From: Sphingomonas changnyeongensis
Lineage (GTDB): Bacteria > Pseudomonadota > Alphaproteobacteria > Sphingomonadales > Sphingomonadaceae
Length of the DNA: 64,000 nt
Reading direction: 5' to 3'
Assembly (NCBI RefSeq): GCF_009913435.1
Contig: NZ_CP047895.1
Location: 371,001 to 435,000, forward strand
Every line of letters begins with the position of its first letter. Position 1 is the first letter of the stretch. Positions 2,132 to 45,769 of this stretch are shown here, piece after piece. Position numbers and translations under genes: made by a program. The notes below the pieces were generated by a model. It did not search any database. It was not told the origin of the DNA and worked only from the letters and a program-made list of their open reading frames with translations.

Positions 2132-2250
2132 GGATGGTTTTTGTGGTGCGGCTTACGGCGCGGGGGCGGGTTTTTTGTGGTGCGGCTCACGCCGCACAGG
2201 CGGCACCGGCCCGCTCCCGGTTGTTCGTTGCGCGCCTCACGGCGCGGAAG
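2132..2250. repeat. 50-bp hairpin units, copy A
   Basis: Left flank of palindrome copy A. Two complete 50-bp units (2171-2220 and 2221-2270, the second running into the palindrome) follow a truncated one from about 2132. Each unit is a short T-rich stretch, a 7-bp-stem hairpin or variant (GTGCGGC-TCAC-GCCGCAC at about 2180), and the box CGGCACCGGCCCGCTCCC. The same unit occurs at 6660, 25521, 40612 and 45569. The intergenic space 2059-2353 holds nothing else I recognise apart from the palindrome and the mtnP ribosome binding site. Confidence 0.8.
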
Positions 2251-2332
2251 CGGCACCGGCCCGCTCCCCCACCCGGCCTCCCATCGACAGGATATGCTAT
2301 GGGAGGCCGGGTGGGGGAGCGGGCCGGTGCCG
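2251..2332. repeat. Dispersed long palindrome, copy A
   Basis: Perfect 33-bp inverted arms at 2251-2283 and 2300-2332 enclose a 16-nt loop (TCGACAGGATATGCTA). The right end is 21 bp from the stop codon of the leftward diheme cytochrome gene. The loop has the same orientation as copy C and the opposite one to copy B. A transcript would fold into an extremely stable hairpin. There is no U-run next to it, so it is not a classical intrinsic terminator. Confidence 0.93.
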
Positions 2333-2353
2333 CGACAGATACGGGCGACCGCG

Positions 2354-6659: not shown

Positions 6660-6690
6660 GTTGTTTGTGGTGCGGCTCACGCCGCACGGG
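6660..6690. repeat. 50-bp hairpin unit, copy B
   Basis: One unit, GTTTGTGGTGCGGCTCACGC and onward, with the perfect hairpin GTGCGGC-TCAC-GCCGCAC at about 6669-6687, merging into the palindrome at 6691. Related to the units at 2171, 25521, 40612 and 45569. Confidence 0.8.
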
Positions 6691-6772
6691 CGGCACCGGC
6701 CCGCACCCCCACCCGGCCTCCCATAGCGTATCCTGCCGTTGGGAGGCCGGGTGGGGGTGCGGGCCGGTGCCG
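6691..6772. repeat. Dispersed long palindrome, copy B
   Basis: Perfect 33-bp arms at 6691-6723 and 6740-6772 with a 16-nt loop (TAGCGTATCCTGCCGT). Compared with copies A and C both arms carry a matched change (GCTCCCCC/GGGGGAGC becomes GCACCCCC/GGGGGTGC), so pairing is kept. The loop is nearly the reverse complement of the copy C loop, so the core sits in the other orientation. It lies 53 bp from the stop of the leftward crotonase gene. Confidence 0.93.
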
Positions 6773-6825
6773 TTCTTCCCAAACAAGCAACTCCCGGTGC
6801 CGTTCTTCCCGCCAAACATCCTCCC
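6765..6825. repeat. 29-30 bp right-tail repeats, copy B
   Basis: GGTGCCGTTCTTCCC appears twice, 30 bp apart, each followed by an A/C-rich spacer. The same tail follows palindrome copies C (three times) and E. Confidence 0.7.
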
Positions 6826-25431: not shown

Positions 25432-25520
25432 GTTGAGCAATCGAACTGCCCCAACCTAATGGTTCAGGGCGGGCATTGAAAGCGGCTTTGACCGGTGCGG
25501 GGGTGTTTGTTGCGCGGGAG

Positions 25521-25599
25521 TGTTTGTGCTGCGCCATGCGGCGCGGGGGCGGCACCGGCCCGCTCCCGGTTGTTTGTGCTGCGCCTTGCGGCGCAGGGG
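25521..25599. repeat. 50-bp hairpin units in tandem, copy C
   Basis: Two head-to-tail 50-bp units (25521-25570, then 25571 onward into the palindrome) that differ at two positions over 47. Each carries the stem GCGCC-NTGC-GGCGC, where copies A, B and D have GTGCGGC/GCCGCAC: both sides of the stem differ in a paired manner. The intergenic space between infC and thrS consists almost wholly of repeats. Confidence 0.88.
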
Positions 25600-25681
25600 C
25601 GGCACCGGCCCGCTCCCCCACCCGGCCTCCCAACGGCAGGTTACGCTATGGGAGGCCGGGTGGGGGAGCGGGCCGGTGCCG
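25600..25681. repeat. Dispersed long palindrome, copy C
   Basis: Perfect 33-bp arms 25600-25632 and 25649-25681, loop ACGGCAGGTTACGCTA. The arms are identical to copy A; the loop is the reverse complement of the copy B loop but for one base. It sits within the thrS-infC intergenic space, 68 bp from the thrS stop. Confidence 0.95.
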
Positions 25682-25749
25682 TTCTTCCCGACAAACAACA
25701 CCCGGTGCCGTTCTTCCCAAACGGAAACACCGGGTGCCGTTCTTCCCGA
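25674..25749. repeat. Right-tail repeats, copy C
   Basis: GGTGCCGTTCTTCCC occurs three times (starting at about 25675, 25704 and 25734), spaced 29-30 bp, the last touching the thrS stop. A- and C-rich spacers (ACAAACAACACC, AAACGGAAACACC) separate them. Confidence 0.75.
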
Positions 25750-33425: not shown

Positions 33426-33437
33426 GGTCTTTCTTTG

Positions 33438-33504
33438 GTCGCGGCACCGGCCCCTGCGCCGCGAGGCGCAGCAAAAACAACCGGTCGCGGGCCGGTGCCG
33501 CGAC
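33438..33504. repeat. Short variant of the mosaic palindrome, copy F
   Basis: Outer arms of 16 bp (GTCGCGGCACCGGCCC at 33438-33453 and its complement at 33489-33504) enclose an inner hairpin CTGCGCC-GCGA-GGCGCAG (33454-33471) and CAAAAACAACCGGTC. The inner part equals the 50-bp hairpin unit of copy C in reverse orientation. It sits 25 bp from the stop of the leftward acyl-CoA synthetase. Confidence 0.85.
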
Positions 33505-33529
33505 AAACAAGACGCGAGAGCCAGCCCCC

Positions 33530-40600: not shown

Positions 40601-40612
40601 GGGGGGGGGGGG
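40601..40612. repeat. Homopolymer of 12 G
   Basis: A run of 12 G in the intergenic space, 25 bp after the maeB stop and directly before the repeat unit of copy D. Long G tracts may vary in length or be miscounted. Confidence 0.7.
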
Positions 40613-40640
40613 TGTTGTTGTGCGGCTTATGCCGCACGGG
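40612..40640. repeat. 50-bp hairpin unit, copy D
   Basis: One unit, GTGTTGTTGTGCGGCTTATG and onward, with stem TGCGGC-TTAT-GCCGCA, leading into the palindrome at 40641. Confidence 0.75.
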
Positions 40641-40720
40641 CGGCACCGGCCCGCACCCCCACCCGGCCACCCAACGGCAGTATCATATGGGTGGCCGGGT
40701 GGGGGTGCGGGCCGGTGCCG
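40641..40720. repeat. Dispersed long palindrome, copy D
   Basis: Perfect 33-bp arms 40641-40673 and 40688-40720 with a 14-nt loop (ACGGCAGTATCATA). The inner arm end is CCACCCA/TGGGTGG where copies A to C have CCTCCCA/TGGGAGG, a paired change. Located between the stops of convergent maeB and bamE, 37 bp from the bamE stop. Confidence 0.93.
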
Positions 40721-40757
40721 CGACCAACTAAGAAACACCCCCCAAAAAAACCCCGGC

Positions 40758-44269: not shown

Positions 44270-44504
44270 CGCCCATCCTCCTTTGCGCCGGCCCCTGTCC
44301 AACTGATGTCACGCCAGACGGCCGGGAACGGGGCAAGGCTAAGGAGGGTCCCCGGCGCGTCCTATCCGCAAAGCTACGGATCGGCGCGCGCGTCCCCGCC
44401 CGGCGCGGACATTGCGTATTTCCAGACGCCGGGCGCCGCGATTGTCTGCCCGCCGGCCCGCGCGGGCAGAACCGCCCGCAAGGGACCGATTGGAGAGGAC
44501 CGAC

Positions 44505-45530
44505 ATGCCCCGGACGATGCGCGCGGCGGTGGCCCGCGCCTTTGGTGCGCCGCTCACGATCGAGGAGGTGCCGGTGCGCGCGCCCGGCCCCGGCGAGGCG
44601 CTGATCCGCGTCCTCGCGTCGGGCGTCTGCCACACCGATCTGCACGCGGTCAGCGGCGACTGGCCGGTCAAGCCGCGTCTGCCGCTGATCCCGGGACATG
44701 AAGGCGTCGGCCGGGTGGTCGCGCTCGGCCCCGGCGTTGCCGATCTGAAAGAGGGCGACGCCGTTGGCGCGCCCTGGCTGCACGATGCGTGCGGACGCTG
44801 CGAATATTGCCTGACCGGGTGGGAGACGCTGTGCGCGCAGCAGCGCAACACCGGCTATGGCGTCGATGGCGGCTTTGCCGAATATGTGACCGCGCCGGCG
44901 GCGTTTCTCGGCCGCCTGCCCGACGGGGCGGACATGGCGCTGATGGCCCCGATCCTGTGCGCCGGGGTGACGACCTATAAGGGGCTGAAGGAAACTGAGG
45001 CCCGGCCCGGCCAGTGGGTGGCGATTTCGGGGATTGGCGGGCTGGGCCATGTCGCCGTCCAATATGCCAAGGCGATGGGCTTGCTGGTGCTCGCCATCGA
45101 CATTTCCCCGGCCAAGCTGGCGCTCGCGACCCGGCTGGGTGCGGATGCGGTGGTGGACGGCAGCACGCCCGACGCGGTGGCGACGGCCCGGCGCATCACC
45201 GGCGGCGGCGCGCACGGCGTGCTGGTCACGGCGGTGTCCAACGCCGCATTCGGCCAGGCGATTGCCCTCACGCGGCCGCGCGGGACGGTGGCGCTGGTCG
45301 GCCTGCCGCCGGGCGATTTTCCGACGCCGATCTTCGACGTGGTGCTGAAACGGCTGACGATCCGCGGCTCGATCGTCGGCACGCGCAAGGATCTGGAAGA
45401 AGCGATCGCCTTTGCCGCCGCCGGCAAGGTGGTGCCGCAGGTCGAGACCGCGCCGCTCGATCAGGTGAACATGGTGTTCGACCGCATGCGCGCCGGTACC
45501 ATCGACGGGCGGATCGCGCTGATCCCCTGA
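44505..45530 (+). CDS. adhP: Zinc-dependent alcohol dehydrogenase (AdhP type)
   Basis: 341 residues. Catalytic zinc ligands in SGVCHTDLHAVSGDW and LIPGHEGVGRVV, structural zinc Cys in DACGRCEYCLTGWETLC, and NAD site ISGIGGLGHVAVQYAKAMG (GxGGxG). This is the class of AdhP/ADH-A ethanol dehydrogenases that interconvert primary alcohols and aldehydes. ATG 44505 follows GGAGAGGACC. The 235-bp space upstream (44270-44504) is shared with the divergent universal stress gene. Confidence 0.92.
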   Translation: MPRTMRAAVARAFGAPLTIEEVPVRAPGPGEALIRVLASGVCHTDLHAVSGDWPVKPRLPLIPGHEGVGRVVALGPGVADLKEGDAVGAPWLHDACGRCEYCLTGWETLCAQQRNTGYGVDGGFAEYVTAPAAFLGRLPDGADMALMAPILCAGVTTYKGLKETEARPGQWVAISGIGGLGHVAVQYAKAMGLLVLAIDISPAKLALATRLGADAVVDGSTPDAVATARRITGGGAHGVLVTAVSNAAFGQAIALTRPRGTVALVGLPPGDFPTPIFDVVLKRLTIRGSIVGTRKDLEEAIAFAAAGKVVPQVETAPLDQVNMVFDRMRAGTIDGRIALIP

Positions 45531-45568
45531 GCCGAGGGTATTGCGCGCCCGCAGGTGTGGGGTGCGGC

Positions 45569-45637
45569 GTGTTTGTGGTGCGCCTTCCGGCGCAGGGGCG
45601 GCACCGGGTTTTTTGTGGTGCGGCTTGCGCCGCACGG
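45569..45637. repeat. 50-bp hairpin units, copy E
   Basis: Two units: a shortened one (from 45569, stem TGCGCC-TTCC-GGCGCA) and a second from 45609 with TTTTTTGTGG and the stem GTGCGGC-TTGC-GCCGCA. The two stem types, each fully paired, sit side by side in the same copy. Confidence 0.8.
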
Positions 45638-45717
45638 CGGCACCGGCCCGCTCCCCCACCCGGCCTCCCACATGATACTGCCGTTGGGTGGCCGGGTGGG
45701 GGAGCGGGCCGGTGCCG
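45638..45717. repeat. Dispersed long palindrome, copy E
   Basis: Arms 45638-45670 and 45685-45717, 14-nt loop CATGATACTGCCGT. The left arm ends CCTCCCA (as copies A and C), the right arm begins TGGGTGG (as copy D), leaving a single T-T mismatch in an otherwise perfect 33-bp stem. The loop is the reverse complement of the copy D loop but for one end base. Confidence 0.93.
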
Positions 45718-45747
45718 TTCTTCCTAAACGAACACACCCGGTGCCGC
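45711..45747. repeat. Right-tail repeat, copy E
   Basis: GGTGCCGTTCTTCC followed 29 bp later by GGTGCCGCGAC, the alternative tail also seen after copies A, D and F. Confidence 0.65.
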
Positions 45748-45769
45748 GACACACACCCGCACTCTCCCG

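Follow-up and report, generated by a model that had tools for sequence, protein, structure and literature searches.

Composite palindromes in the window

The window analysed here is a 64,000-nucleotide stretch of Sphingomonas changnyeongensis DNA, positions 371001-435000 of contig 1 of a 3.0-Mb genome in two contigs (G000). Six copies (A–F) of a palindromic element lie within it, and the six-copy family proposed in an earlier, sequence-only reading is confirmed: the arms of A to D are perfect over 33–35 bp, and those of E have one mismatch. Copies A to E consist of a core palindrome, to which no strand is assigned, and of side modules of two kinds, H and T, which all read on the plus strand. 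As had also been claimed, a hairpin unit lies to the left of each of these five cores, and GGTGCCGTTCTTCCC units lie to the right of B, C and E.

The core of copy A (2250..2333) has arms of 35 nt (2250-2284 and 2299-2333, 100% matched) with 14 nt between them; if the arms are taken as 33 bp, the loop is TCGACAGGATATGCTA. The H module on its left (2200..2249) contains the arm-like GCGGCACCGGCCCGCTCCC, followed by GTTGTTCG and a hairpin, GCGCGCC/GGCGCG. Copy B (6691..6772; arms 6691-6723 and 6740-6772, 33 nt, 100%, 16 nt between) is preceded by an H module (6660..6690) composed of GTTGTTTG and the hairpin GTGCGGC/GCCGCAC, and is followed by T modules (6773..6810) in which TTCTTCCC, a spacer and GGTGCCGTTCTTCCC succeed one another. 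Copy C (25600..25681; arms 25600-25632 and 25649-25681, 33 nt, 100%, 16 nt between) has the loop ACGGCAGGTTACGCTA and three TTCTTCCC tails as T modules on its right (25682..25749). The H modules left of C (two, 25520..25599), of D (one, 40612..40639) and of E (two, 45570..45637) were delimited from the sequence. Copy D (40640..40721; arms 40640-40673 and 40688-40721, 34 nt, 100%, 14 nt between) has the loop ACGGCAGTATCATA, and to its right CGACCAAC, a version of T with CGA; a run of about 12 G residues lies just left of its hairpin module, at about 40602-40613. Copy E (45638..45717; arms 45638-45670 and 45685-45717, 33 nt, 97%, 14 nt between) is the copy with the arm mismatch, and its T module (45718..45747) is made of TTCTTCCT, a spacer and CCGGTGCCG.

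Copy F (33435..33507) had been described as a short variant. That description stands, with the addition that the copy has outer arm remnants (33435-33453 and 33489-33507, 19 nt, 95%, 35 nt between) around an H hairpin, and that the corresponding site of a sister genome, G003, is occupied by a full core. Predicted DNA folding of copy C (25569-25715) pairs GTTGTTTGT with ACAAACAAC, enclosing the hairpin together with the core, and the RNA fold of the same copy is very stable (z -11.1, with 0 of 200 shuffles equally stable).

Copy number and composite anatomy

The genome contains 48 exact matches to the two-arm pattern and 0 to the pattern read backwards; a single arm with up to three mismatches gives 76 and 74 matches on the two strands, against 0 for the backward control, so that a chance origin is excluded. 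Searching the genome with the core showed the family to be larger than had been claimed, with at least 80 cores in the examined part of contig 1 (742,713 of 2,869,229 bases, including the surroundings of every located core) compared with six in the window. Seventy-three were located directly, with arms identical over 33 bp in 46 and differing by one mismatch in 15, and in seven further cases a seemingly unpaired arm belonged to a core whose second arm is defective. The genome holds many intergenic copies of palindromic units paired in inverted orientation, which is the layout of REP/BIME elements.

From our reading of the 80 copies, what had been described as a 50-bp hairpin unit and a 29-30 bp tail occupy, as alternatives, a single side slot. 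The slot consists of CCGGTGCCG, a filling, and a spacer resembling CAAACAAC, and slots repeat outward from the core. The filling is either H, a small hairpin (for example TGCGCCGCAAGGCGCA, GTGCGGC/GCCGCAC or GCGCGCC/GGCGCG), or T, which is TTCTTCCC or CGA; by eye, CGA takes the place of TTCTTCCC in about 20 of the 80 copies. Since H and T mostly take opposite sides of the core, the composite has a direction. Loops are mainly of two types, ACGGCAGGTTACGCTA and ACGGCAGTATCATA, and the direction of the loop is independent of the H/T direction (p 0.64). Side modules away from cores are nearly absent from the examined part of contig 1 (3 T and 0 H), and the four nucleotides preceding the H hairpin vary (TGTG 23, TGTT 15, TGCG 5, TGCT 4 and six others once each, among 53 units recognised by one regular expression).

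GTTGTTTG and CAAACAAC are able, in the predicted fold, to close a stem around hairpin and core. Allowing at most one mismatch, GTTGTTTG is present on the left in 49 of the 80 copies, CAAACAAC on the right in 37, both in 24, and either the wrong way round in 0. An enclosing inverted repeat of at least 9 bp is seen at 21 of 107 loci, compared with a rate of 4.0% in flanks that were re-dealt; at 48 of the 107, at least one flank has a side hairpin of at least 7 bp, compared with 1.9% per shuffled flank. Several of the loci belong to one genus. The junction shape is therefore enriched among these loci and is not universal: folding predicts that at part of them, where a short inverted repeat encloses the locus, one strand can adopt a three- or four-way junction.

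Distribution and conservation of the core

A core found in this assembly alone would have refuted the sequence-only reading, and this is not the case. Its pattern is present in 74 of 397 genomes of the family (36 of 96 genera), with up to 84 hits per genome, and a slightly looser pattern in 18 of 385 genomes of the class Alphaproteobacteria (12 of 277 genera), so that most sampled genomes of the class are without a detectable core. In a sample of the phylum the looser pattern matched 6 of 398 genomes, all six within the class, and 0 of the 263 genomes of other Pseudomonadota, as counted by hand; the family, class and phylum counts include G000, and backward controls were 0 in every row listed. 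Named hosts among the matches listed are Sphingomonas, Sphingopyxis, Sphingobium, Novosphingobium, Hephaestia and Erythrobacter, together with Neoroseomonas, Acidisoma, Roseospira, Minwuia and Kordiimonadales. Five other members of the genus were searched by pattern and BLAST, and in four of them neither method detected a core. Phage records gave no core matches and plasmids gave 3 records of 72,556, all from sphingomonads (NZ_CP079204.1 with 4 places, NZ_CP017076.1 with 6 and NZ_AP017899.1 with 2), a possible route of transfer.

The core palindrome is common to several alphaproteobacterial orders, and the side modules are lineage-specific; other genera have the same core with other inverted ends and hairpins. 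In G262, a genome of a second genus that is probably akin to Parasphingopyxis, to judge from ends common to loci L209 and L237, the usual composite is TTTGTCAGA, hairpin, core, hairpin and TCTGACAAA, with TTTGTCAGA and TCTGACAAA around most copies (by eye) and no T-rich tail adjoining the core. Locus L147, from the same genus (g96), has this layout and folds as a cloverleaf (z -15.8). At locus L052 (G009:C8) the right arm plus CCCCAAAG is present three times in tandem just right of the core, which suggests amplification of the arm.

The pairing of the arms is conserved across 110 cores, with 3284 of 3520 cells Watson-Crick paired compared with a maximum of 2954 in 200 re-dealings, where 13 of the 32 positions were fixed by the search pattern in real and re-dealt arms alike. 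Ten arm positions have at least five Watson-Crick double changes each (249 in total); the same ten have 178 cells that are G-T or unpaired, 104 of these at outer positions 6-9, and positions 17, 19 and 25 together contribute 100 double changes versus 27 such cells. As G-T cells number only 50 of 3520 and A-T/T-A swaps are frequent at inner positions, copying of the arms at the DNA level seems to fit better than selection on RNA.

Position relative to genes

Genes were called with our own codon-usage script, which is not a validated annotation, and by these calls all 80 located cores are outside genes. The gaps that hold them are convergent in 43 cases, tandem in 24 and 12, and divergent in 1; among 346 background gene pairs the corresponding numbers are 50, 102 and 147, and 47 (convergent share, p 1.3e-12). 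In G262, 16 of 38 copies are in convergent gaps, compared with 30 of 217 background pairs (p 1.3e-4), and 4 are in divergent ones.

An element so placed could act on transcript ends, as a bidirectional terminator or a stabiliser of mRNA 3' ends in which TTCTTCCC serves transcripts running from H to T. The excess of convergent and the near absence of divergent gaps in G000, the convergent share in G262, the stable RNA fold of copy C, and the occurrence of other small hairpins at junction D in two relatives all speak for this, as do three terminator-like sites found by a scan around copy C, all in its H module, compared with a shuffle mean of 0.5. The scan is silent on the core, because it allows loops of 3-8 nt and the core loop is too long. 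Against this explanation, TTCTTCCC follows the core in only part of the G000 copies, CGA replaces it in the approximately 20 copies noted above, the G262 copies have no T-rich tail beside the core, and the orientation of the composite tracks replication and not transcription, as described below. We regard it as unlikely, though not negligible, given that the copies sit at gene 3' ends and that the H module contains terminator-like sites.

Orientation and replication

Most copies of the composite point one way relative to the replication fork. The origin of G000 was marked by its sole exact parS-like match, at 649,953, with an antipode at 2,084,574; parS-like sites are matches to what we take to be the parS consensus, and the origin is set by one such match. 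The H module is on the left in 33 of 35 copies of the left replichore and in 7 of 42 of the right, with 3 of 80 ambiguous (Fisher, 1.7e-12), and 9 of the 77 scorable copies are contrary. The switch in orientation falls between the copies at 609 and 717 kb, an interval that contains the parS-like site. GC skew, a noisy second witness, has the sign expected for these replichores in 8 of 10 and 7 of 10 sample stretches.

Transcription was rejected as the cause of this orientation on three grounds. The polarity is present in convergent gaps, where transcription is symmetric (H-left in 18 of 18 versus 3 of 23, with 2 ambiguous; p 7.5e-9); in tandem gaps the H/T orientation is independent of gene direction (p 0.72); and the genes called on the same stretches have no replichore bias (195 plus and 174 minus in one, 190 plus and 159 minus in the other).

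A weaker polarity is seen in G262, where a parS-like site is at 2,398,202. The script placed the A side origin-proximal in 24 of 32 copies, 6 of 38 being ambiguous; without the copy at 2600348, which is ambiguous by eye, the count is 23 of 31 (binomial p 0.011, 2x2 Fisher p 0.032), and four contrary copies stand in a row at 2.96-3.04 Mb. Cores in this genome are clustered locally on one side of the parS-like site, at 2569-2770 kb of contig C1. The polarity counts cover G000 and G262; a further genome with 25 copies, G615, does not enter them.

Such an orientation might be maintained by selection, if the composite acted on the fork or on segregation in the manner of an oriented skewed motif. 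The strong polarity of G000, with its switch in the interval holding the parS-like site, and the weaker one of the second genus are both in keeping with a selected signal. We think it quite improbable nonetheless: the core is dispensable, being absent from four of the five other genus members searched; the conserved core is itself unpolar, loop direction and replichore being unrelated (p 0.35); and there is no accumulation of copies near the antipode of parS, their numbers per 150-kb bin of distance from parS being 9, 20, 11, 6, 6, 5, 16, 3, 4 and 0. The unpolar core also leaves room for a polarity acquired once copies were in place, through side modules that grow or are exchanged in a preferred direction.

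Turnover among relatives

Copies at gene 3' ends differ between related species. None of the relatives G001, G002 and G005 has a core at locus C, D or F. At F all three have a spacer a few bases long, as does G002 at D; unrelated hairpins occupy D in G001 and G005 as well as C in G001, and C in G002 and G005 holds other sequence. In G001 (L283) the hairpin repeats at junctions C and D are GC-rich ones of different kinds, CCCCGGCGAAAGCCGGGG-like and CTCCTGCGAAGGCAGGAG-like, where G000 has the element. The search for empty sites in relatives that the sequence-only reading had proposed thus yielded sites without the core, which are too diverged for a junction duplication to be read, and no target-site duplication was seen in G001, G002 or G005.

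The sister genome G003 matches G000 at 89-94% identity. In addition to its full core at F, it has the opposite orientation at D, and it lacks both element E and the neighbouring gene (window 44386-45766). The G003 assembly is 80% complete in 280 contigs, and 16 cores on its examined contigs were compared: seven coincide with the locus of a G000 core, one corresponds to F, another maps 2.2 kb from the nearest G000 core, and the remaining seven have no match in the examined part of G000. Six of the seven shared loci are readable, and the length class or direction of the loop differs at three of them, with a different right-hand module at two of these three. The earlier suggestion that the parts are reshuffled like building blocks is borne out by these differences.

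Comparison with known repeat families

No Rfam 15 family matches the window at gathering score. Below that score, and at copy C only, there are 13 matches to hairpin models—11 microRNAs, 1 snoRNA and 1 rhizobial sRNA—and membership of a known RNA family was rejected. The rhizobial RIME and ABC elements are alphaproteobacterial mosaics of palindromes, and to that extent the present element resembles them. Caulobacter CIR elements are named for CcrM sites, GANTC, from which the present element differs in that GANTC is found in 0 of its 80 cores, a count that rises to 18 of 80 when 60 nt of flank on each side are included. It resembles CIR in being alphaproteobacterial and intergenic, CIR being reported as strictly intergenic in PMC10969869. 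The open-licence PMC literature, to the extent that its texts were accessible, yielded no description of the element, which is weak evidence of absence; together with the Rfam result this agrees with the earlier statement that no named family was known.

Comparison with other families gave partial likenesses. Like REP, BIME and REPIN elements, the family is intergenic and of high copy number, with inverted paired hairpins and mosaic composites (PMC6006769); unlike REP/BIME, it is without a Y1 match in its genome and, judging by the varied tetranucleotides noted above, apparently without a constant foot of the GT[AG]G type before the H hairpin, and it has an 80-bp core palindrome and a replication-polar composite. 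With MITEs such as ERIC and QMITE2 it shares a short, intergenic, gene-less form, variable copy number and, in part of the copies, possible inverted ends (PMC10969869). MITEs are described there as typically AT-rich, whereas this element is GC-rich and a three-part mosaic, with no target duplication seen at the diverged empty sites. The PIT motif (TM-ECO) is also a GC-rich intergenic repeat, found in many genomes and tied to local instability, and is set apart by its description: it is 37 nt long, it is reported to lack strand-orientation bias, and the string "Sphingo" occurs 0 times in the main text (PMC4666352). A parallel to the orientation is IS608, of the IS200-IS605 group, which targets the lagging-strand template and is therefore oriented with replication (PMC5371812); IS608 is autonomous and encodes TnpA, whereas the present element is gene-less.

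REP, BIME and REPIN elements with RAYT (TnpA-REP) are proposed in PMC6006769 to be mobilised as single strands. The RAYT-type transposase that the sequence-only reading had suggested looking for was not found: the Y1 domain (PF01797) has 0 matches in G000, in a search whose control matched in 5 of 14 genomes, and membership of a RAYT-mobilised REP/BIME system was rejected for the G000 element on this ground. Among 52 chosen genomes, Y1 matches were obtained in 8 of 26 carriers with at least three pattern hits (7 over the cut-off) versus 4 of 26 genomes with none (all over the cut-off), and Y1 is not a marker of carriers. The family might still be a relic of a RAYT/REP system or of an IS (a MITE), its transposase lost or residing in another host. 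The BIME-like layout, the Y1 matches in those eight carriers and the cores on three plasmid records lend this something, and yet there are multi-copy genomes without a Y1 match (G000 with 70 pattern hits, G021 with 84, G262 with 37 and G111 with 21), and no arm pair encloses a gene among the located copies. A relic of this sort appears very improbable to us.

Discussion

On balance, and with modest confidence, we favour the view that these are non-autonomous, REP/MITE-like mobile repeats that spread through fork-linked single-stranded DNA with the help of a putative enzyme acting in trans, and that are tolerated at gene 3' ends. The combination of transcription-independent polarity, empty sites, turnover and a strand that can fold suggests single-strand mobility linked to the fork and resembling that of IS608 (PMC5371812 and PMC6006769). 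New copies would be made from single-stranded DNA that folds on one of the two template strands at the fork. The enzyme would be something other than a recognisable Y1 (RAYT/IS200) transposase of G000. Insertions would persist mainly at sites where promoters and reading frames stay intact, and an influence on transcript ends, if there is one, would be a by-product. The near-perfect arms and the swapped or flipped loops and modules may reflect use of the arms as homology for hairpin-templated repair and for exchange between copies.

Several observations count against this fork-linked mobility. No copy has been caught moving, no target-site duplication was seen at the diverged empty sites, Y1 has no match in G000 and does not mark carriers, 9 of 77 scorable copies are contrary, and the polarity of G262 is weaker, with its row of four contrary copies; the orientation at locus D is opposite in G003, and the enclosing repeat is present on both sides in only 24 of 80 copies. 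The shortage of copies far from parS counts against it as well: 7 of the 80 lie beyond 1.05 Mb, where approximately 21 would be expected from an even spread, whereas a preference for termination sites is reported for IS608 and Tn7 (PMC5371812).

The earlier claim of a mosaic family holds, and its scope was too narrow, as the core occurs in other alphaproteobacterial orders and the composite is polar with respect to replication. A broader proposal is tentative, and we would sooner expect it to fail than to hold: that these are class-wide, junction-shaped elements whose core is old and shared and whose lineage-specific arms can be exchanged, mobilised at the fork in trans by an enzyme other than Y1/RAYT, in which the orientation of each copy is a readable record of fork direction.

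Repeats of this kind break short-read assemblies, as at the very start of G003 contigs 31, 37, 82, 117 and 215, where matches to the element are found, and they could be of use in locating the origin and terminus of draft genomes. If our interpretation is right, a repeat family spanning several alphaproteobacterial orders has stayed unnamed, its replication polarity offers a handle on how gene-less repeats multiply, and it becomes testable which enzyme mobilises repeats in genomes without RAYT.
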